A DNA stretch of 64,000 nt. Origin: Spartobacteria bacterium (lineage in GTDB: Bacteria > Verrucomicrobiota > Verrucomicrobiia > Chthoniobacterales > UBA10450). Location: the NCBI GenBank assembly GCA_003134785.1, contig PLCN01000019.1:1-64000 (forward strand), read 5' to 3'. The notes under the pieces were generated by a model. That model saw only the letters and a list, made by a program, of their open reading frames with translations, made no database searches and was not told the DNA's origin. The position numbers and the translations under genes are program-made. Of this stretch, positions 30,842-59,430 are shown in pieces. How positions within the stretch are numbered: position 1 is the stretch's first letter; the number at the start of each line of letters is the position of its first letter.

Positions 30842-31309
30842 TTACTGCCCCGCGAAGATCGGGGTCGAGGTAATGTCCGAGGCGTCGAACGAAAATCCGT
30901 GGCCGGTATTCGAGAGCGCCTTCAACAGCGCGGCGACGCTCTGCGCGGTGCTGGCGGAATAAAATCGCACCAGACCCACCGTGGTCCGCTTGCCGAAAAC
31001 CGTGATCATGATCGTATCGTCGTCCACCGAATTCATGAAAATGTGATTGCCGTTGCCCTGGTGATAAAGCGCGTTGAATTCCACTTCGCCGATGCGCCGC
31101 GCGAGTTCCTTCGTCGCAGCGAACGATCCGGCAGCGAGCGCGGCGATGATCGTCACGTCCATCACGGTCATGTCGCCGAACTGCGAGATGACATTCCCGC
31201 CACGGTCGATCACTACCGTCAATTCCGCTTCGGCCTTCTGCAAAAAATCGCCCAGAACCCCGTCAAGATTCGCGACGTCTTCAATCGTTAGGCAAGGGAT
31301 CGCGTTCAT
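30842..31309 (-). CDS. Roadblock/LC7 domain protein, MglB-like
   Basis: A 155-residue protein made almost entirely of a roadblock/LC7 fold: a first helix (VLGDFLQKAEAELTVVIDRG), the GGNVISQFGD turn, a central helix (DVTIIAALAAGSFAATKELA) and the strands NHIFMNSVDDDTIMITVF. Roadblock proteins such as MglB of Myxococcus are GTPase-activating or exchange partners of MglA. Its start overlaps the stop of the MglA-like gene by four bases, so the two are co-translated and almost certainly partners. The C-terminal 25 residues are an unrecognised extension. Confidence 0.85.
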   Translation of the reverse strand: MNAIPCLTIEDVANLDGVLGDFLQKAEAELTVVIDRGGNVISQFGDMTVMDVTIIAALAAGSFAATKELARRIGEVEFNALYHQGNGNHIFMNSVDDDTIMITVFGKRTTVGLVRFYSASTAQSVAALLKALSNTGHGFSFDASDITSTPIFAGQ

Positions 31310-31980
31310 ACTGCTGCGTTCTCCTTCCGCGCCATTGCCGGCGGCTCGACCGGGATCGCCACCGGCCTCGGCGCCGTCTTCGGCACATCACTTTGCTTGC
31401 TGAATTTGTGCAGCAAAATCTGCGAGACCGCGTTCAGCGAAGCGAAAACATTTTGCCCGGTGCTGGAAATGACCTCGAAGCTCTGCACTCGTCGCTTCCG
31501 ATTATTCAGCACGTACTCGAGGTAATTGACCGGTGCGATGCTTTCGAGGTCGCGCTTGTTGTATTGGATGACGTAAGGAATTTCGTCGATCGAGATGTTC
31601 TGCTTCGCGAGATTGTCTTCGAGATTTTTGAAGCTCTCGACGTTCTCCTCCATTTTTTCCCACTGTGAATCGGCCACGAAAACGATGCCGTCGACGCTCC
31701 GCAAAACCAGTTGGCGCGTGGCGTTGTAAATCACCTGGCCCGGCACGGTGTAGAGCTGAAACTTCGTCACGAACCCTTTGATCACGACGGCGTTCAGCGG
31801 GAGAAAATCGAAGAACAAAGTCCGGTCCGCCGCGGTCGCGAGCGAGACCAGGTCGCCGCGATTCTCCGGATTAATGCGTTTGTGAATGTAATCGAGGTTC
31901 GTCGTCTTGCCGCAGAGCGCCGGCCCGTAGTAGACGATTTTGAACTGAATTTCGCGGCTGGCGTAATTGATGATCGACAT
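31306..31980 (-). CDS. MglA-like small Ras-family GTPase
   Basis: A 224-residue GTPase. The P-loop YYGPALCGKTTNL (G19-T26) has the Ala-Leu-Cys filling typical of the MglA branch; G3 is YTVPGQ (about 78-82), with Pro rather than the Ras-like Ala or Asp; and G4 is NKRDL (N141). A C-terminal tail of about 30 residues is Pro/Ala-rich. MglA controls front-rear polarity of type IV pili and gliding motors in Myxococcus. Here it is paired with a roadblock protein and sits just downstream of a GspE-type ATPase gene, which suggests control of that secretion or pilus machine. Confidence 0.9.
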   Translation of the reverse strand: MSIINYASREIQFKIVYYGPALCGKTTNLDYIHKRINPENRGDLVSLATAADRTLFFDFLPLNAVVIKGFVTKFQLYTVPGQVIYNATRQLVLRSVDGIVFVADSQWEKMEENVESFKNLEDNLAKQNISIDEIPYVIQYNKRDLESIAPVNYLEYVLNNRKRRVQSFEVISSTGQNVFASLNAVSQILLHKFSKQSDVPKTAPRPVAIPVEPPAMARKENAAV

Positions 31981-31993
31981 AGGAGAAGTCCTT

Positions 31994-33928
31994 CTAGACC
32001 GGATGGTGCGTGTATTTTCGTGAAAGCTCGTGCACGACGCGCGAGAGCTTCTCCCGCACCTCGGGGGTCAGGTCGCCGTTGGAATGAAGAGCCGCGAGGC
32101 AAAGATTTTCGTGCATGAAAAATGTGACGGCGCCTTTCGTGCAGGCCAGCGTCATCCCGCGGAGCGCGCCGAGTTTGGTGTCGACCATGTGGGTTTCGAT
32201 GCGCTGCATCAGCGAAGGCGCCATCGCGCAAAGGCCGTCCGTTTCACACTCGGGCGGTAAACTGCCCGCGAGACTGAGGCCGTCGCCGAACATGATCGCG
32301 CAAGCCTTCACGCCTGAAATCTTGTTTATGTGCGCGACCACGCCTTTCGCATCCAGCTTCTCATCCGTCCCGAGCGCGACCTGTAACGGATTGCGCGGCA
32401 TCACATCGAACGGCTTTCGCACGGTCTCCGCGGCTGGCGCGGCCGCTGGCCTGACTGCGACCGGCTCTTCCATCGGCTTCGCCACCGGCGTTCCGGCGAC
32501 GTTGAGCCGTTTCGCATCCTCTTCCGCTTTCGCGGAGAACGGCGTCGCAAAGTTTGCGCCCGCTTCCTGTTCTTCCTGGTCGTCGCGCATGCGCAACGAA
32601 ACCGTGGGCAAATTCTTCAACACCTCCTGCAACGGCAGAATGACGTCGCCTGCTTCATCGGCCTTGAAAAGACTCCGATATTCTTCCGGTATGCTCGCTT
32701 CGAAAACTTTCGGCGTGACCGTGATTCGACCGGCCGCAAGTTGTGGTTCGATTAGCGAGAACGGAAATTCGGCGCGCGCTTCCGCTGACACGCTCGCGGG
32801 ATCACCGCTCAACTGAAACGGCGGCAACGCCTGCAAGATCGGCTTCAGCGGGAGGACGATCTTCGTTTCTGTTTTGTCCGCAGGCTTGGGTGCAACGGTC
32901 GGCGCCGCAGTCTTTATGCTTTCGGCCGTCAGCCAGGGTTCTTGCTTTGGCCGCAGATCATCCGACGGAGCCGTCATCTTGAACGGGATCCGCACCGGGG
33001 CCGGCGGCGTTGATAAACTAGTCGGAACGGACGGCCCGCTTGAGGCTGGAACACTCTCAGTGACGGGCGCGTCCGTTCCATTCGGTGTAATTTTAAAAGG
33101 AATTCGCGTGGGCGGAGCCATTTCGTTCGCGGCTGGCTCGGGTTCCGCGGCGGCAAACGCTTGCGCCGTCGGCAGCTCCACCCGCACGGGGGGAAGATCA
33201 CCGGTCTCGACCGCTTCCATCGTGGTCCCAAATGTCGAATTGTCTTCGAGCGTGACCTTCAAGAATGGCGTCTCCACCTGCGGCACCGCCTGATGCCGCT
33301 CCTGATCGCGACGCACCTGCAAGCTGGTAAATTGTTCGAGCACTTTTTGGAAAGGAAGGTGCACCTGCGTCGTATCGGCCGGAGGAACGGTGCGCAGAAA
33401 AATTTCCGGCACCTGTTGGTAAATGGTGGCGACCGAAACCGCCGGCTTACCCTTCGCCATTCCTTTTTCCACTTCGGATGCCTTGAGCAGAATCCGGCGC
33501 GCGGAATCGGCCTCTGACAGCGGCCGCACATATCCCTCGGGCATGTGCGCGACGACATCCGCGATGTCGAGCGAGATCACGCGTTCCACTCTGGGTTCGA
33601 GTGCCAGCGCCACTGCAGGCGGCAAGTCACGCTGTCGCGCCGCAGGTTGCTGTCCCCCAAATGAAATCGTGCGCGAGCCGGTCGACGCCGGAGCGGTCGC
33701 AGTAGCGGAAGCCATCGAGCCTCCACCGGTCGAACGCGCCGCCATCTGAAACGGATCCTGCGGCGGAACCGTTCGCGTCGCATTCGGCATCACCGTCTTG
33801 CTGAAGCGATCGCTCTCCGGCTTTTCGAGCGGCGCCAGCGCCGGCTTGGCCGCCGCAGCGGACTGCTCCTTCTTCGCCCCGATCTGCGTCTTGGCTTTCT
33901 TAAAGAAATCTAAAAATGGAATCGTCAT
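31994..33928 (-). CDS. Large modular protein ending in a roadblock-like domain
   Basis: 644 residues, mostly low-complexity Ala/Pro linkers joining short conserved blocks. Residues about 145-210 (ASEVEKGMAKGKPAVSVATI ... LPFQKVLEQF) and about 390-452 (PQLAAGRITVTPKVFEASIP ... LPLQEVLKNL) are two copies of one module; a partial third copy lies at about 357-375 (IVLPLKPILQALPPFQL). Residues about 515-644 look like a roadblock/LC7 domain (GVVAHINKISGVKACAIMFG, continuing to the C-terminus). There is no signal peptide or membrane helix. It lies 13 bases upstream of the MglA-like gene and 7 bases after the ATPase. It could be a scaffold that recruits the GTPase to the ATPase; that is inference. 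I recognise no named family. Confidence 0.8.
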   Translation of the reverse strand: MTIPFLDFFKKAKTQIGAKKEQSAAAAKPALAPLEKPESDRFSKTVMPNATRTVPPQDPFQMAARSTGGGSMASATATAPASTGSRTISFGGQQPAARQRDLPPAVALALEPRVERVISLDIADVVAHMPEGYVRPLSEADSARRILLKASEVEKGMAKGKPAVSVATIYQQVPEIFLRTVPPADTTQVHLPFQKVLEQFTSLQVRRDQERHQAVPQVETPFLKVTLEDNSTFGTTMEAVETGDLPPVRVELPTAQAFAAAEPEPAANEMAPPTRIPFKITPNGTDAPVTESVPASSGPSVPTSLSTPPAPVRIPFKMTAPSDDLRPKQEPWLTAESIKTAAPTVAPKPADKTETKIVLPLKPILQALPPFQLSGDPASVSAEARAEFPFSLIEPQLAAGRITVTPKVFEASIPEEYRSLFKADEAGDVILPLQEVLKNLPTVSLRMRDDQEEQEAGANFATPFSAKAEEDAKRLNVAGTPVAKPMEEPVAVRPAAAPAAETVRKPFDVMPRNPLQVALGTDEKLDAKGVVAHINKISGVKACAIMFGDGLSLAGSLPPECETDGLCAMAPSLMQRIETHMVDTKLGALRGMTLACTKGAVTFFMHENLCLAALHSNGDLTPEVREKLSRVVHELSRKYTHHPV

Positions 33929-33935
33929 CGAAATT

Positions 33936-35666
33936 TTAGTGGTCCTCCGAGGTGACGCGCCAGATTTCTTCGAGCGTGGTCACGCCCTCCAGCGCTTTGT
34001 CGATTCCGACCATGCGCAGTGTTCTCATGCCCTCGCTCATCGCCTGGTTTTTGACGACGGCGGCCGAGGCGCGCTTGATGATTAGCCGGCGGATCGATTC
34101 GGTCACCGGCAGCGCTTCGATGATCGCGACGCGGCCGAGATAACCGCGCCCTTTGCAGCGCTCGCACCCGCTCCCGTGATAGAAGACAGCTCCCTCCGGC
34201 GCGGTCATGCCGAGGCGTTCGAAGATTTCCGGCTCCGGCTGAAACTCTTCGCGGCAATTCGTGCAGATGCGCCTAATGAGTCGTTGCGCGGCCGCCATGA
34301 TGACCGAGCTCGAGATCAGGAACGGCTCGATCCCCATGTCGTCGAGTCGCGTGATCGCACCCGCGGCGTCATTCGTGTGCAGCGTGCTCAAGACCTGGTG
34401 GCCCGTCAGCGCTGCCTTCACCGCGATGTCCGCCGTTTCGTTGTCACGAATTTCACCCACCATCACGATGTCCGGATCCTGCCGGAGGATTGAGCGCAGC
34501 GCCGAAGCGAAATCGAGTCCGATATCGTTGCGTACCGAGACCTGATTGATGCCCGACAGCTCGTACTCGATCGGGTCTTCCACCGTCACGATGTTGTATT
34601 GAGGGCTGTTCAGTTCCTGGAGGACCGAGTAAAGCGTCGTCGTCTTTCCCGAACCCGTCGGCCCGGTGACAAGAATCATCCCGTGCGGTGCGTCGATCGC
34701 CTTCTTGAATTTATCAAGCGTGGACGGATCCATCCCCATCTGGTCGATGCTTCCCGTCAGTGCTGCCTTATCGAGAATACGGATCACGATCTTCTCGCCG
34801 TAAGCGGTCGGCAGAATAGAGACACGCAAATCCACTTCCTTGCCGATCACCTTGATCCGGAACCGGCCGTCCTGTGGCACGCGGCGTTCCGCGATGTTGA
34901 GGCCCGCGAGAATCTTAATGCGCGACGTGATCGCGAGCTGGAGCGCTTTTGGCGGCGATTCCGCCATGAGCAATTCGCCGTCCACCCGATAACGCAGCTT
35001 CAGCGTGCGCTGAAATGGCTCGATGTGAATGTCCGACGCCTTCTCCTTCACGGCTTGCGCGAGAATCAGATTGACGATCTTGATGACGGGCGCGTCTTCG
35101 CTGTCCGTCGCCAGCCGGTCGAGATCGATCTCATCGCTCTTCTTCGCCTGGATCTCGATTTCGCCCGCGGCCGCCACGTCTTCCGCCACCTGCTTGAGCA
35201 CCTGGCTCATGTTCGAAGCGCCGTGCACCCCAGCGAGCGCGTCGGCCACCGCCTTCTCCGTCGCGATCATCGGCACGATCTCGAGCTGCACCCGCCGCTT
35301 CACGTCGTCCACCGCGAGCACGTTGGTCGGATCGGCCATGGCCACGAACAGCTTGCCGTTAAGCCGCGCGATCGGGATCAGCTTGTTCGTCTTCGCCATG
35401 TCGCGCGGGACGAGTGACATCACGTCCTCCGGCACGCGCAATTTCGAGAGATTGATCAGCGGCGTATTGAGACAGCGGCCCATGCTGACCGTCATGTCCT
35501 GGTCGGTCACGAACTGCTTGTCCGTCAAAATCTTCAGCAGCCGGCCGCCTTCTTTTTGCTGAATGCCAACGGCTTCCTCGAGCTGACCCGGCAGCAGGAG
35601 ACCGTCCTCGATCAGGACATCTGCGATGCGTTCCGCGAATGATTTGCTTCTCATCGTCGCGAGCAT
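33936..35666 (-). CDS. gspE: Type II secretion / type IV pilus assembly ATPase (GspE/PilB)
   Basis: A hexameric assembly ATPase of about 576 residues. The N-terminal MshEN/GspE-N domain (ERIADVLIEDGLLLPGQLEE) is followed by the core ATPase: Walker A GPTGSGKTT, Asp box (KASDIHIEP), Walker B IVMVGEIRDNETADIA, His box (LSTLHTNDAAGAITRL) and a C-terminal four-Cys zinc site (CTNC, CERC). It powers assembly of pilins or pseudopilins. The start at 35666 is chosen because it overlaps the TAA of the upstream gene (TAATG); the open frame extends much further but without similarity. No gspF or gspD is in the window. Confidence 0.94.
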   Translation of the reverse strand: MLATMRSKSFAERIADVLIEDGLLLPGQLEEAVGIQQKEGGRLLKILTDKQFVTDQDMTVSMGRCLNTPLINLSKLRVPEDVMSLVPRDMAKTNKLIPIARLNGKLFVAMADPTNVLAVDDVKRRVQLEIVPMIATEKAVADALAGVHGASNMSQVLKQVAEDVAAAGEIEIQAKKSDEIDLDRLATDSEDAPVIKIVNLILAQAVKEKASDIHIEPFQRTLKLRYRVDGELLMAESPPKALQLAITSRIKILAGLNIAERRVPQDGRFRIKVIGKEVDLRVSILPTAYGEKIVIRILDKAALTGSIDQMGMDPSTLDKFKKAIDAPHGMILVTGPTGSGKTTTLYSVLQELNSPQYNIVTVEDPIEYELSGINQVSVRNDIGLDFASALRSILRQDPDIVMVGEIRDNETADIAVKAALTGHQVLSTLHTNDAAGAITRLDDMGIEPFLISSSVIMAAAQRLIRRICTNCREEFQPEPEIFERLGMTAPEGAVFYHGSGCERCKGRGYLGRVAIIEALPVTESIRRLIIKRASAAVVKNQAMSEGMRTLRMVGIDKALEGVTTLEEIWRVTSEDH

Positions 35667-36586
35667 TAAGCCCGGCTCTCCAGCCGGTAGATGTCCTGCA
35701 AACATTTGATGATCGCACCGGGCCGCGCGAGGTACCACGTCACCGTGTAATCGAGCGATTGCTGCACCGCTTCCCGGCCCGCCGCGTCGAACGGATTGCA
35801 ACACGCCACCATGATCGTGCGGCTGATCAAATCGAACGGCACATAGAGCCGGCCCAGCGTCAGATGGTCCGGCAACATTCGCGCGATCTGCCGGTCCACG
35901 TCGTAATACTCCAGCGGCACATAGGCAAATTTTGTTCGGTCGATCAAGCCCGACAGCACCGCATCGAGCTTGTCCGTATCCTGCCGGCAAATTTTATCCA
36001 GAAGCGAAGCCGCGAGCGCCTGCCCGCTGAGATCCTTGTTCAAATGCTTCGTCGTCTCGACCGCTTTGGTCACCGCGTCTTCCGTGAAGAGCTGCTGCAT
36101 CACCAGGAATTTCGCCAAGTGATCGTCCCCGCGATCCTGCGGATGCAAACCGCCGCGTCCCTGTTGGAGATCTACCAGTCCGCCCTCGTGCGTACCGTTG
36201 TGCGTCAGACCATTCACGCCCCCGCTCGTCGGCGTCGCGATCAATCCATGCTTCGATCCGCTCGCCGCGATCGTCTGGCCCGCAGCCTGCAAACGCGTCT
36301 CGATATCGCCCAGCATCGCCAGGATTTCCGGCGCGTTCGGTTCCTTGAGCAAAATGACCTCGCACTCCTGCATTGCGAGCGTGTAGGAGCCGGCGCTGAA
36401 ATAAGCCTCCGCCAGGCGGCGCGAAGTCTTGAGGGAATCCTCTGCGCGGCCGACCTTTTGGTAAGCTTCCTTGAGGATTTCGAGCGACTGATAATCGTCA
36501 GGCTGAGTTTGAGTTATGACCTCAAACATCTCGATCGTCTGAACGATCTGACTATGCTCCTCCTCGGATAACGTGTGTTCCAGCAC
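35666..36586 (-). CDS. TPR protein with a C-terminal GspE-N-like domain
   Basis: 306 residues. The first 110 or so form TPR-like helices (YQSLEILKEAYQKVGRAEDS, YTLAMQECEVILLKEPNAPE). A linker follows, and residues about 160-306 resemble a GspE/PilB N-terminal domain (AKFLVMQQLFTEDAVTKAVE, YVPLEYYDVDRQIARMLPDH, VACCNPFDAAGREAVQQSLD). There is no ATPase core. It is the first gene of the operon and overlaps gspE by one base. Because GspE-N domains dock on the inner-membrane platform or on each other, it may bridge the ATPase to other components. This domain combination is one I do not recognise as a named family. Confidence 0.8.
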   Translation of the reverse strand: MLEHTLSEEEHSQIVQTIEMFEVITQTQPDDYQSLEILKEAYQKVGRAEDSLKTSRRLAEAYFSAGSYTLAMQECEVILLKEPNAPEILAMLGDIETRLQAAGQTIAASGSKHGLIATPTSGGVNGLTHNGTHEGGLVDLQQGRGGLHPQDRGDDHLAKFLVMQQLFTEDAVTKAVETTKHLNKDLSGQALAASLLDKICRQDTDKLDAVLSGLIDRTKFAYVPLEYYDVDRQIARMLPDHLTLGRLYVPFDLISRTIMVACCNPFDAAGREAVQQSLDYTVTWYLARPGAIIKCLQDIYRLESRA

Positions 36587-36936
36587 AACGCACCGTTAAA
36601 AGCTAGAACCATGCCCCCATCTCCCGTTGTCCCCGAAACCCGGGTAAAACATCCAGCCGTTTCACGTTGCTGCACGCGTCGCTTCTAATTCCTCGTAGCG
36701 GCGGTCTACGACCGAATCTCTTCGAATCCCGAATTGACTGCCGGATGTCGCGAACGCCGCAGATTTTCCTCATCGTACTCGTGCTCCTGCTCGTGATCGT
36801 CCCTTTCCCCGCCTCTCACCTCTCAGGCCTTCCCCCCAGAATCTCCTTCCTACTTTCCAATTTCTGCTTTCTAATTCCTCCACCCCTCTTCCCCGGTTAT
36901 TGCTGTGAAATTCCAAGTCGCTCCGTCCCCCGGTCC
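36587..36936. other. Divergent intergenic region with repeat-like sequence
   Basis: 350 bases between the divergent GspE-type operon and the pseudopilin cassette. It holds TAGCGGCGGTCTACGACCG (36697-36715), similar to the GCGGCGGTTT repeats, and a CGTACTCGTGCTCCTGCTCG stretch (36774-36799) related to 4144-4220. An open frame runs through it into the next gene but has the look of translated repeat. Promoters for both directions should lie here; I could not identify any with confidence. Confidence 0.5.
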
Positions 36937-37722
36937 GTGAACTCGTCCCTCGCCACTCATCGCTCGTTACTTCCTCGTGGCTTTACCCTGATCGAGCTCA
37001 TGGCCGTCATCGCAGTCGTCGTCATTATGACCGTGCTGCTTGTCCCTGCCCTCACCAGTTTGAAAGGTTCCGGCGACATCACAAATGCCGCTTACACAAT
37101 TGCCGGAGCACTGGAGCAAGGCCGTGCCTACGCGATGGCTAATAACACCTACGTTTGGGTTGGCTTTTACGAAGAAGACGCAAACTCAATAGCTCCCACG
37201 AATGCCAGTCCAGCGTACCCTGGCCGCGGGCGCCTCCTTGTCGCGATTGTTGCTTCGACCAATGGTACCAAGATCTTTGAAAATGCAGATCCTATCGCTT
37301 CGCTACCGACGGCGCGCATCAGCCAGGTCGGAAAGCTAACGAAGATCGAAGGAGTCCACCTCACCGACATCGGCGCGCCACCATCGCCAGCGCCCATTCC
37401 AACACCAGCACCGAACAGCCTCGCTGGCAGACCGGACCTTCCCTACACCGAGGGTGCACCTTTCACGCATTTCAATCGGATCAGCAGCGATAGCACCGAC
37501 GCGACGAGATTTTCCTTCTCAGTTCAAAATTACACCTTTTATAAGACGGTCCGATTCAATCCGCGTGGAGAAGCAAATGTTAATAGCACCTATGCCATGA
37601 AGCATGCTGCTGAGATCGGCTTGCGCCCAACCCACGGTAGCGTCGTTGACACGAACAGCACGAATGTCGTCGCCGTTCAGTTCAGCGGTGTAAGCGGCGA
37701 TTTCAAAATCTACCGCCAGTGA
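36937..37722 (+). CDS. Pseudopilin-like protein, Verru_Chthon cassette protein D type
   Basis: About 261 residues from a GTG at 36937. The leader MNSSLATHRSLLPRG precedes FTLIELMAVIAVVVIMTVLL, with G|F cleavage and Glu at +5. The C-terminal domain is rich in Ser/Thr/Asn and short strands, as in GspH-like minor pseudopilins; a Pro-rich stretch (SPAPIPTPAPN) sits mid-protein. It is the first of four linked genes matching what I remember as the Verru_Chthon cassette (proteins A-D). The stop overlaps the next GTG start. Visible G+C content is lower than in the flanking genes. The start is inferred from the prepilin leader; the open frame continues upstream. Confidence 0.78.
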   Translation: MNSSLATHRSLLPRGFTLIELMAVIAVVVIMTVLLVPALTSLKGSGDITNAAYTIAGALEQGRAYAMANNTYVWVGFYEEDANSIAPTNASPAYPGRGRLLVAIVASTNGTKIFENADPIASLPTARISQVGKLTKIEGVHLTDIGAPPSPAPIPTPAPNSLAGRPDLPYTEGAPFTHFNRISSDSTDATRFSFSVQNYTFYKTVRFNPRGEANVNSTYAMKHAAEIGLRPTHGSVVDTNSTNVVAVQFSGVSGDFKIYRQ

Positions 37723-38201
37723 GGATTACCGCAAGATATCGCTCCGGCTTCTCCCTCGTTGAAGTCACTCTCGCGCTTGGAGTGGCCGCGGTATGTCTGG
37801 TGACGATTTTCGCTCTTCTTCCAGTCGGATTGCAGACAACGCAAAATGCGAATCAGCAGGTCGCGTCTGCTGACATCATGGGCGCCGTAATCGCTGACCT
37901 ACGCGCAACGCCACTCACAATCCCTCCCGGAAGGGCTGCCACATCCCCGAAGTTTGCGATTCCGATTCCAGCTAATCCCGTCGAAGCTACGGCCACTACG
38001 ATTCTATTTTTTGGTAGCGAAGGACAGTTTTCGAGTTCGGTAAATTTGGACTCACGTTATCAATTGGCCATCGCCATCGTGCCGAATAGTGCTCCGCGGG
38101 CCGCAACCCTTGTAAATTTGAAAATGACATGGCCTGCCGCCGCCTCTCCTGCTAACGCCTCCGGATCTGGTGAGATGTTTCTAGCCTTGGACCGAAACTA
38201 A
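37719..38201 (+). CDS. Pseudopilin-like protein, Verru_Chthon cassette protein B type
   Basis: 160 residues from a GTG that overlaps the preceding TGA (GTGA). The prepilin signal MRITARYRSG|FSLVEVTLAL has Glu at +5 and is followed by a hydrophobic helix (GVAAVCLVTIFALLPVG). The remainder is a small soluble domain ending SGSGEMFLALDRN. Size and order suit a GspI-like minor pseudopilin. It belongs to the same operon as the D-, C- and A-type genes. Confidence 0.78.
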   Translation: MRITARYRSGFSLVEVTLALGVAAVCLVTIFALLPVGLQTTQNANQQVASADIMGAVIADLRATPLTIPPGRAATSPKFAIPIPANPVEATATTILFFGSEGQFSSSVNLDSRYQLAIAIVPNSAPRAATLVNLKMTWPAAASPANASGSGEMFLALDRN

Positions 38202-38206
38202 CATCG

Positions 38207-39040
38207 ATGGATATGCAGCGATCAAAGGCATTCACGCTGGTCGATATGCTGGTATCGATCACGGTGCTAACGCTGATTATTCTCTTCGTTTCTCGACTGT
38301 TTAGTAGCGCCTCTGCGCTCACTACGTCCGGCAACAAGCGCATGGATGTGGACGGGCAGGTTAGACCCCTACTCGATCGGATTGCGATTGACCTTGCGCA
38401 GATGGTCAAAAGATTTGACGTAGATTATTTCCTAAAATCATCAAGCAATCCTCAGACAGGCAATGATCAGATAGCCTTCTACAGCGTGGTGCCTGGTTAC
38501 ACTACGTCCGCGGCCAGCCCGGTTTCACTGGTTGCGTATCGAATCAATATCAAGAATCAGATCGAGCGAATGGCGAAAGGATTGATCTGGAACGGTGATT
38601 CTTCCCCCGGAACTCCCGTTGTGTTTTTGCCACTCACGATCACCACAACATGGCCATCTGCGACCGACATCACTAGAGACGCTGATTACGAACTTACCGC
38701 TCCGAACGTTTTCCGATTTGAATACTATTACGTCCTAAGAAACGGTAGCAATTCTGATACGCCCTGGGATACCGCGGCAGGACACACAGGACCAGACGGG
38801 ATGCAGGACGTGGCTGCGATCTCCGTGGCAATCGCCGCGATTGACCCGAAAAGCCGGGTGTTACTGTCCGACGCGCAGCTTACCACGCTGGCTGCTGGTC
38901 TGAACGATTTTTCCAGTTCGATGGCCCCGGGGGCGTTGCTAACCCAATGGCAGACGACACTCGATGCCGCGACGGGCATGCCACGTTCCGCAATTGCTGG
39001 TATCAGGATTTATCAACGCTGGTTTCCAATCGCGCGTTAG
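38207..39040 (+). CDS. Pseudopilin-like protein, Verru_Chthon cassette protein C type
   Basis: 277 residues. The N-terminus MDMQRSKA|FTLVDMLVSITVLTLIIL is prepilin-like, but the residue at mature +5 is Asp rather than the nearly invariant Glu. The length and the C-terminal end (GIRIYQRWFPIAR) suit a GspJ-like minor pseudopilin. The start lies five bases after the B-type gene. The gene is visibly A/T-richer than the dcw region (for example, 22 of 60 bases at 38401-38460 are G or C). Confidence 0.78.
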   Translation: MDMQRSKAFTLVDMLVSITVLTLIILFVSRLFSSASALTTSGNKRMDVDGQVRPLLDRIAIDLAQMVKRFDVDYFLKSSSNPQTGNDQIAFYSVVPGYTTSAASPVSLVAYRINIKNQIERMAKGLIWNGDSSPGTPVVFLPLTITTTWPSATDITRDADYELTAPNVFRFEYYYVLRNGSNSDTPWDTAAGHTGPDGMQDVAAISVAIAAIDPKSRVLLSDAQLTTLAAGLNDFSSSMAPGALLTQWQTTLDAATGMPRSAIAGIRIYQRWFPIAR

Positions 39041-39051
39041 ACTTTCTCGTG

Positions 39052-41127
39052 ATGTGTTGTTTACGCCACAGTACTATTACACGTACCCGCGGCGTAGCAC
39101 TGGTTATTGTCTTGGCCTTCGTGGTGCTGTTGGCAGGTATTGTCGTCGCCTACCTAACGCGAACGGGCACCGATCGACAGCTCGCGCAGGAAACTTTCAA
39201 CGAAACCAGCTCCGATCAGTTAGCCAGAGCCGCGTTAGACATCATAGTTGCAGATTTCAAACAAGAGATTACTAACGGCTCCACTACGTCGACCGCGGGT
39301 AGTGCGACCATCTACGCGCCGTCGTCCAATGCAACGATAGTTCCACAGCGGAGTGGGACGCAAGCTGCCATCCCAAATTTGATTCGTCGCAGTGTTAGTC
39401 CTGATTTGATTTCGTTCCCTGGCGTCGGCAGCCGCGCCTCCGCCGTTAATTCAACGACGGATGTCTCATCCAACGGGCGCTTCGTAAGTTTGGCTCGTTG
39501 GAATAGCCATTATCTCATTCCAAAAATCAACCTCGCCGATGATACATCAGACCCGGTGGCGGCTTTCGTTGCTCCGGACTGGGTGCTTCTTTCACGCATC
39601 GGGCCTTCGATTCAAACTGGCGTGGACACGGGTTCCATCGCGCTAAACAACCGCCTGGTTACAAACGCGAATTACATCATTGGGCGTTATGCCTACGCTG
39701 TCTATGACGAAGGGGGATTGCTCGACATAAACGTAGCAGGTTTTCCATCCCCTACTCCCGCACCTGCAACGATTGCGGGAAGAAAAGGCGCAATAGCGTT
39801 CGCCGATCTCACCGCATTGCCCACGACCGGCTCTAGCTTTGTGTCCAACACGGCGATCAACAGAATTATCGGCTGGAGGAACTACGCGACGGTCCAGCCA
39901 ACCGGCGCTTTTCCTAACTTCACCTTCAATGCCACTTCCGGTTCGGCGTTTGCAACCTACTTCCTTGATACCGCTCGTAATTTCGGAACTGTCGCCACGA
40001 CGGTCTCAGGCGGCCGAACGGATCAAGCCTTTGTGAGTCGAGCGCAGCTCATACAGCTGCGGGCAGACATAGCCGGCAGTGCCAACATGCTTCAATATCT
40101 CGGCACTTTCTCGCGCGATCAAAACAAGCCAACATGGAGGATAGCTCCCACAGCCCCCCTTGCTAATAGGTTCGCGCTAGCGAAGCTCGCGGAAGTTGTA
40201 CCAAGTCCTCCGAATCCCGCGGCCGTTAAGGCGGATTTCGGTTTAGTATGGAAGAGCGATCACTGGGAGTATTGGAGCGCCAGCGGAAGTGCCGAACAGA
40301 GTAGCATTCCCGCAATCACCGGACCGTCTCCGGACTTCTTTCAATTACTGAGCTACGGAAGATCAAACCCCCTAATCGCCGAAACCCTTACGATCGGTGC
40401 CTCCCTGATAGATCAGTATGATGCGGACAATACAACCACCGTTATCGAATATGCCGGCGGCCCACCTCCTTCCCGTGCGTATGGAATGGAATCGTTAGCG
40501 GTGCCCACACCTTCTCCGGCTCCTTCGCCACCGGCGGGCGCAGTCATTTTGAATCGGCCATTCCGTAACGTGGGGGAATTCGGGTATGCCTATAAGACGA
40601 GTACCGCTACACTCGATTTTAAATCCAACAATCTCGACGGTGCCTTGCTCGATCTTTTCACCTACAATACTGCGAATCCGCGGCCTGGCATCGTCAGTTT
40701 GAACACGCGGAACAGTTCTGTTCTCGCAGCGATAATCAAGGGCGCCTTGCCCACCGAAGCAGCGGCGATGGGCATAACGAATGCCCAGGCAACGTCTGCG
40801 GCAACGAGTATCATTAGTGCCAGTACAATCCAGCCTGCTATGGGCCGTCAGGATGTGAGCCGGCTCGCCAGCGCTCCTGCTTCCGCCCCTTTCACGCTCA
40901 ATGAAGAAAACCGAGAAACTATTGCGCGTGCACTTGCTGAAGTCGGGCAAACTAGAACTTGGGGCCTGTTGATCGATGTAATAGCGCAATCAGGGCGCTA
41001 TCCACCGACTGCGACAAGTCTAGCCAACTTCGTTGTCGAAAGCGAAAAGCGTTATTGGCTTCATGTGGCGATCGATCGATTTACCGGAGAGATAATCGAC
41101 CAGCAACTCGAAGCCGTCTACGAGTAG
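39052..41127 (+). CDS. Large pseudopilin-associated protein, Verru_Chthon cassette protein A type
   Basis: About 691 residues from the ATG at 39052. The N-terminus carries a basic leader (HSTITRTRG) and then VALVIVLAFVVLLAGIVVAY, a membrane helix like those of GspK/PilX-type proteins but without the FTLIE motif. The long exported domain is rich in Ser, Thr, Asn and Ala and has no catalytic motif I can name. Its size and position as the last gene of the set fit cassette protein A; GspK-like tip protein is a plausible role. Residues SPTPAPATIAG and TPSPAPSPPAG mark Pro-rich linkers. Confidence 0.78.
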   Translation: MCCLRHSTITRTRGVALVIVLAFVVLLAGIVVAYLTRTGTDRQLAQETFNETSSDQLARAALDIIVADFKQEITNGSTTSTAGSATIYAPSSNATIVPQRSGTQAAIPNLIRRSVSPDLISFPGVGSRASAVNSTTDVSSNGRFVSLARWNSHYLIPKINLADDTSDPVAAFVAPDWVLLSRIGPSIQTGVDTGSIALNNRLVTNANYIIGRYAYAVYDEGGLLDINVAGFPSPTPAPATIAGRKGAIAFADLTALPTTGSSFVSNTAINRIIGWRNYATVQPTGAFPNFTFNATSGSAFATYFLDTARNFGTVATTVSGGRTDQAFVSRAQLIQLRADIAGSANMLQYLGTFSRDQNKPTWRIAPTAPLANRFALAKLAEVVPSPPNPAAVKADFGLVWKSDHWEYWSASGSAEQSSIPAITGPSPDFFQLLSYGRSNPLIAETLTIGASLIDQYDADNTTTVIEYAGGPPPSRAYGMESLAVPTPSPAPSPPAGAVILNRPFRNVGEFGYAYKTSTATLDFKSNNLDGALLDLFTYNTANPRPGIVSLNTRNSSVLAAIIKGALPTEAAAMGITNAQATSAATSIISASTIQPAMGRQDVSRLASAPASAPFTLNEENRETIARALAEVGQTRTWGLLIDVIAQSGRYPPTATSLANFVVESEKRYWLHVAIDRFTGEIIDQQLEAVYE

Positions 41128-58251: not shown

Positions 58252-59430
58252 GTGAATAAGGAACTTATAGATGCTCTGCTTTCAGCGATGATCAGCAGCA
58301 GCGAAGGCATTTCCGATCTGCTCTTCGCTGTGGGCCGGCCCCCCATTATCGAGGAACATGGCCTCCTGGAAGAATTTCCCGTGGAAACGCCCACCGGCGT
58401 GCTGGATTCGGCGCTGGTCGAACAAATCGCGACCCACTTGATGGGCGGCGACGAGCGGCTCGCGAACGATTTCGCGACTTACGGATCGTGCGATTGCAGT
58501 TATGCGCTCTCGGGCTTAGCGCGATTTCGCGTCAATATTTTCAAGCAGAACGGCCGGCAAGCGATCGTGATGCGTAAGCTCCAGACCGAGATCCCGACGC
58601 TCGATCAACTGGGCCTGCCTCCGATTTTCAAGGAAATGATCAAGGAGAGGAACGGGATTATTTTTGTCACGGGCGCGACTGGGAGCGGCAAGACGACGAC
58701 GCTCGCCGCGATGCTGAACGAGCTGAACGAATCGCAAAAAATCCACATCCTCACGCTGGAAGATCCGATCGAGTTTCTGCATCCGCACAAAAGTGCGCTT
58801 TTTAATCAGCGCCAGCTCGGGAAGGATTTTCCCGATTTCGCGAGCGGGCTGCGCGCCGCGCTCCGGCAGGCGCCGAAGGTAATTCTCGTGGGCGAAATTC
58901 GCGACCGCGCCACGATGGAGATCGCGATGACGGCGTCAGAAACCGGTCACATCGTTTTCACGACGATGCACACGATTAACGCCGGCCAAACAATCAACCG
59001 CGTCCTCGGCATGTTCGCTAAGGATGAAGAACCGCAGCTCCGGCAGCGGCTGGCCGACACCGTCCGTTATGTGGTGAGCCAGCGGCTCGTGACCAAAGTC
59101 GGCGGCGGCCGCATGCTCGTTTCCGAAATCATGGGCAGCAGCCTGCGCACGCGCGAAACGCTGCTTTACGGCGAAGGCGAGAATCGGACCTTCCAGGAAA
59201 TCATCGAGGCCGGCGGAACGATGGGCTGGCACACTTTTGATCAATCGCTCCTCGCCGCTTACAAGGCCGATCTAATTACGGACGAGACCACTCTCATTTT
59301 CTGCGCGCATAAAAACAAAATGCGGCGCGACATCGACATGGTGAAAAAATTGCGGGGCCGCACCTACGAAGAACCGTCCGGCCTCCGGATGGAGCCTGAG
59401 CCCCAAGCGAATGCTTTCGCCGCTGCGTAA
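58252..59430 (+). CDS. Type IV pilus retraction-type ATPase (PilT-like)
   Basis: A 392-residue secretion-family ATPase with a GTG start. The N-terminal PAS-like domain (ISDLLFAVGRPPIIEEHGLL) is followed by Walker A GATGSGKT (141-148), the Asp box (TLEDPIEFLH), Walker B VILVGEIRDRATMEIAM and the His box (HIVFTTMHTINAGQTINR). There is no zinc-binding Cys cluster, which distinguishes PilT/PilU from GspE/PilB. PilT drives pilus retraction; the counterpart assembly ATPase in the window is at 33936-35666. It lies 22 bases before a receiver-domain gene, probably co-transcribed. Confidence 0.9.
   Translation: MNKELIDALLSAMISSSEGISDLLFAVGRPPIIEEHGLLEEFPVETPTGVLDSALVEQIATHLMGGDERLANDFATYGSCDCSYALSGLARFRVNIFKQNGRQAIVMRKLQTEIPTLDQLGLPPIFKEMIKERNGIIFVTGATGSGKTTTLAAMLNELNESQKIHILTLEDPIEFLHPHKSALFNQRQLGKDFPDFASGLRAALRQAPKVILVGEIRDRATMEIAMTASETGHIVFTTMHTINAGQTINRVLGMFAKDEEPQLRQRLADTVRYVVSQRLVTKVGGGRMLVSEIMGSSLRTRETLLYGEGENRTFQEIIEAGGTMGWHTFDQSLLAAYKADLITDETTLIFCAHKNKMRRDIDMVKKLRGRTYEEPSGLRMEPEPQANAFAAA

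Follow-up and report, generated by a model that had tools for sequence, protein, structure and literature searches.

A roadblock protein with repeated modules encoded beside MglA in Verrucomicrobiota: a candidate scaffold of the MglA/MglB GTPase switch

In Myxococcus xanthus, RomR, MglC and MglB form a complex in which RomR and MglC bring MglB to the pole (PMC10329633), and MglC binds MglB (PMC7949163). In the same genus, MglA-GTP acts via the TPR protein SgmX on the localisation of PilB (PMC7519303), while the conservons of Streptomyces (CvnA-D) are operons in which an MglA-like GTPase is encoded together with a roadblock protein (PMC4316618, PMC13343842). In this study, we analysed a stretch of 64,000 nucleotides from a Spartobacteria bacterium (contig PLCN01000019.1; hereafter, the window), in which a 644-residue roadblock protein is encoded within a probable leftward operon of five genes:

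35666..36586, minus strand: protein with TPR and MshEN domains, first gene of the probable operon
33936..35666, minus strand: PilB/GspE-type extension ATPase with MshEN domain (T2SSE, 463.9 bits), start likely near 35666
31994..33928, minus strand: the modular roadblock protein, 644 aa, residue 1 at 33928 (translation and full-length homologues across the family)
31306..31980, minus strand: MglA, Ras-like GTPase with P-loop GPALCGKT (Pfam Arf, 24.3 bits, above cut-off; neighbour in relatives)
30842..31309, minus strand: MglB, roadblock protein (Robl_LC7, 44.1 bits; NCBIfam MglB model, 60 bits, E 2.9e-16)

All five genes are co-directional with short or overlapping junctions, and the operon is retained in several families of the order. 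A plus-strand reading of 31994..33928 was rejected on account of its many stops. The ATPase matched both the PilB (646.5 bits) and the GspE model (622.6 bits), in each case slightly below the model cut-off. Upstream of the operon and divergent from it, four genes at 36667-41127 (plus strand) with pilin-like signal sequences matched the Verru_Chthon cassette models D, B, C and A, with B above its cut-off, and a PilT/PilU-family retraction ATPase, also above cut-off, was found at 58252-59430 (plus strand). The genome itself revealed several further PilT-sized ATPase matches, PilM and four PilB/GspE-type ATPases.

Compared with the Myxococcus systems, the operon encodes all three kinds of protein that are functionally linked in the SgmX pathway (TPR protein, PilB-type ATPase, MglA), though the TPR protein here has an MshEN domain and the modular protein is without a known counterpart there. 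As in the RomR/MglC/MglB complex, MglA and MglB stand beside an extra MglC-like roadblock domain, but while MglC is a stand-alone homodimer binding MglB and RomR, the domain is here fused to a long chain with new repeat modules, and no receiver domain was found in the protein. The Streptomyces conservons differ in having a sensor kinase and CvnC, and no scaffold with such modules is described there. Since proteins of the kinds that make up the MglA-SgmX-PilB pathway of Myxococcus are encoded in the operon, together with an MglC-like domain on a repeat-bearing chain, we propose that the protein may be a modular scaffold (adaptor) of the MglA/MglB small-GTPase switch, which, judged from gene adjacency and co-occurrence, we consider somewhat probable.

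The original prediction had described a modular protein with a duplicated block and a terminal roadblock domain, and profile comparisons, AlphaFold and Foldseek agreed with this layout. The following features were distinguished:

33890..33928, minus strand: short aromatic/basic amphipathic peptide at the N-terminus, MTIPFLDFFKKAK, residues 1-13 (pattern seen by eye in most N-termini of the protein family)
33773..33823, minus strand: linear motif KPxSxRxSKTVMPNxTR in the disordered N-tail, residues 36-52 (K44, V46, P48 and R52 invariant in 23 homologues)
33311..33592, minus strand: module 1, four beta-alpha units, residues 113-206 (profile comparison, HMMs, AlphaFold island at residues 115-204)
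33242..33283, minus strand: conserved tail after module 1, VETPFLKVTLED, residues 216-229 (alignment)
32873..33241, minus strand: Ala/Pro-rich linker with RIPFK motifs, predicted disordered, residues 230-352 (pLDDT <50; composition)
32585..32872, minus strand: module 2, residues 353-448 (profile comparison, HMMs, core pLDDT of the module model about 85)
32504..32551, minus strand: conserved tail after module 2, ATPFSAKAEEDAKR, residues 460-475 (alignment)
32009..32356, minus strand: Roadblock/LC7 domain, MglC-like by sequence, residues 525-640 (Foldseek; profile against the PDB; Pfam in relatives)

The two modules, of about 95 residues each, are colinear along their entire length. Profile-profile comparison of the two blocks using 23 homologues (hhalign) was significant with a probability of 97.8 and an E value of 5.9e-12 over 99 columns, and even for the single sequence the BLOSUM62 local score of 73 (31 ± 5.6 in shuffles) was reached by none of 2000 shuffles, so that the predicted internal duplication is well founded. 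In distant homologues, the HMM of each copy also matched the other copy. The copies had originally been placed at about residues 145-210 and 390-452, which do lie within the modules; the true units are larger, spanning about 113-206 and 353-448, and the supposed partial third copy at 357-375 turned out to be the beta-alpha unit with which module 2 opens. Within a module, halves of about 48 aa in turn align with each other (hhalign E 9e-7), so that, each of the two modules consisting of two similar halves, the protein would comprise eight beta-alpha units. The AlphaFold model of the module, derived from 14 rows taken from both copies, displayed four strand-helix units with a core pLDDT of about 85; the structure predictions rest on shallow alignments of 8 and 14 rows, drawn from the window and its related loci only. 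The full-length model revealed three folded islands, with the rest of the chain mostly of low confidence and predicted disordered, the Ala/Pro linkers of the original prediction being supported; with a pTM of 0.26, this model says nothing on the arrangement of the domains relative to each other. Behind both modules, the tails share the consensus (E/A)TPF....ED. At the N-terminus, a regex survey matched 27 of 62 peptides, more being alike by eye but unscored, and a peptide of the MTIPFLDFFKKAK type might serve as an anchor at the membrane or at a polar hub.

Searches for known relatives of the module gave only scattered weak Pfam matches among 31 module members, each in one member and with a best E value of 0.053, which gives no support for assigning the module to a Pfam domain. 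By sequence, the PDB contained no convincing relative (best E 0.053), by fold Foldseek reached a best E value of 6.6 against the PDB, and VIA-align against 23 chains resulted in none with Z>=2. Therefore, the idea that the blocks might be explained by a known unrelated domain found no backing in Pfam or in the PDB by sequence or fold. The module was also compared by hhalign with the ATPase, the TPR-MshEN protein, MglA, MglB and the roadblock domain, and its interpretation as MshEN, a degenerate roadblock or another domain encoded by a neighbour was rejected, as probabilities were at most 0.8% in every comparison. No relative was found in plasmid records. The module family thus appears to be undescribed in the libraries searched, though a new fold cannot be concluded from a missing match.

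Among relatives, the module number varies from one to three. The combination of disordered Pro-rich linkers with repeated folded domains is characteristic of multivalent hubs, and together with the variable copy number this would suit modules that self-associate into a polymer or condensate hub at the pole, to which the switch would be recruited via the roadblock domain only. We regard such a hub as distinctly improbable, as members with a single module occur (L051, L052). In three-module members (L091, L101, L106), a ComEA-type helix-hairpin-helix-like segment, NLNTAxxxxLxxLPGVG, was noticed by eye before the roadblock domain, and in two assemblies (L034, L036) the ORF of the protein is split into two frames.

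The C-terminal domain is, according to its predicted structure, a true roadblock fold. Foldseek with the AlphaFold model resulted in 66 PDB matches (E<=1e-3); each of the 50 listed was a structure of roadblock, MglB or LC7 type, or a complex that includes one. Though the protein itself reached only 14.8 bits for Pfam Robl_LC7 (cut-off 23), relatives scored above the cut-off with 25-34 bits, in line with the terminal roadblock domain originally predicted. In a profile search against the PDB, MglC was the best bacterial match for this fused domain (E 5.4e-4), with archaeal roadblocks scoring better and LAMTOR2 as a weak match, while MglB was absent from the matches at E<=1. The NCBIfam search of the protein revealed no match, and comparison of the domain profile with the operon's own MglB gave P=0.027. 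By these sequence criteria, the protein was not assigned to the MglB family, i.e., to the GAPs of MglA. The eukaryotic Ragulator/LAMTOR system is alike in that its platform for small GTPases is built from roadblock domains. It consists of heterodimers and is not known to include repeat modules of the kind described here.

Since small GTPases are commonly regulated by roadblock domains, the main role of the protein might instead be to regulate the GTPase. Its roadblock domain, either by itself or in a heterodimer with MglB, would then serve directly as a GAP or GEF co-factor for MglA, and its modules would be regulatory. Two f5 genomes (95% and 91% complete) would fit such a role: here the protein is the best roadblock match and MglA is adjacent, no MglB adjoins, and only weak roadblock matches are found elsewhere. 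However, the domain is closer to MglC than to MglB, no pull-down of MglA by MglC was reported (PMC10329633), and MglB is also present in most loci, so that we consider a primarily regulatory role rather unlikely.

Regarding distribution, 40 of 83 genomes of the family harbored both the modular protein and MglA, 41 harbored neither, none had MglA only, and two had the modular protein only, both being fragmentary assemblies (78% and 53% complete). A search with a module-only profile in 387 genomes of Verrucomicrobiota identified 32 carriers, 30 of them with MglA (30 both, two module only, 12 MglA without a detected module, 343 neither). Fisher values for this co-occurrence were 1e-21 in the family and 1e-32 in the phylum, but as the genomes are related to each other, both overstate the significance. 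G122 and G467 have module and roadblock domain, with MglA undetected. In a branch of the order (f7; L047-L050), a related roadblock protein retains an eroded module at best, and MglA does not adjoin it, and L109 likewise encodes a related roadblock protein without MglA nearby. In L048, the gene next to the roadblock protein resembles a TolQ/ExbB homologue, and such a gene was also seen near the operon of the window. In genus g14, all 35 sampled genomes were without the modular protein and MglA, which suggests that this genus lost the whole system.

In the 27 module loci whose adjacent genes were read, a C-terminal roadblock domain was present throughout (27/27), in three sequences detected only when these were searched with a broader profile. 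MglA adjoined in 23 of them, MglB in 17 and a PilB/GspE-type ATPase in two. The order of MglA and the modular protein varies by group, co-directional or divergent, while the pair remains together. These loci bear on the original suggestion that the periodic blocks are binding sites for the hexameric ATPase encoded next door, i.e., that the modules dock on the PilB/GspE hexamer and tether the extension ATPase. In this order and in L089, the ATPase gene does adjoin that of the modular protein within one probable operon, and in L100 it lies nearby. But the module loci had been found without reference to the ATPase, and in 25 of the 27 no such gene was seen nearby; furthermore, module counts of one to three give no sign of a sixfold match to a hexamer. 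We therefore do not favour the ATPase as the partner, and consider the docking of the hexamer quite improbable. With a PilB-type ATPase adjacent in only two of 27 loci, it is the GTPase, rather than the ATPase, that is constant as a genetic partner. That the modules are repeated sites for one partner, as such, stays plausible.

As MglA almost always adjoins these proteins of Verrucomicrobiota, a scaffold of the MglA switch is the reading that we prefer, and the protein probably couples the switch to machinery on the cell surface, e.g., a pilus. In such an arrangement, a flexible Pro/Ala-rich chain with an amphipathic peptide at its start would string together two modules and the MglC-like roadblock domain. 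The latter may dock on MglB and/or MglA, as MglC does on MglB in Myxococcus, and the chain would hold the docked complex at a site on the membrane or pole. The binding target of the modules might be the GTPase itself or a further component of the complex, with the duplication raising avidity. In this order, the assembly could then control two other products of its operon, the PilB-type ATPase and the TPR protein, comparable to the action of MglA and SgmX on PilB. More tentatively, the module may be a new domain, distributed across Verrucomicrobiota, with specific recognition of MglA or its complex, and roadblock proteins with one to three modules may represent a phylum-specific class of small-GTPase effectors or scaffolds connecting polarity to surface machines.

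Knowledge of MglA comes mainly from Myxococcus, whereas Verrucomicrobiota are a large, little-studied phylum; in the library searched, we found no literature naming Verrucomicrobia with MglA, GTPase and pili beyond one GTPase survey. A conserved third component that had not been labelled before and has a new repeat domain would offer an entry into how the polarity switch is wired to pili or secretion machines, and the protein may serve as a test case for how roadblock domains were built into larger GTPase regulators.
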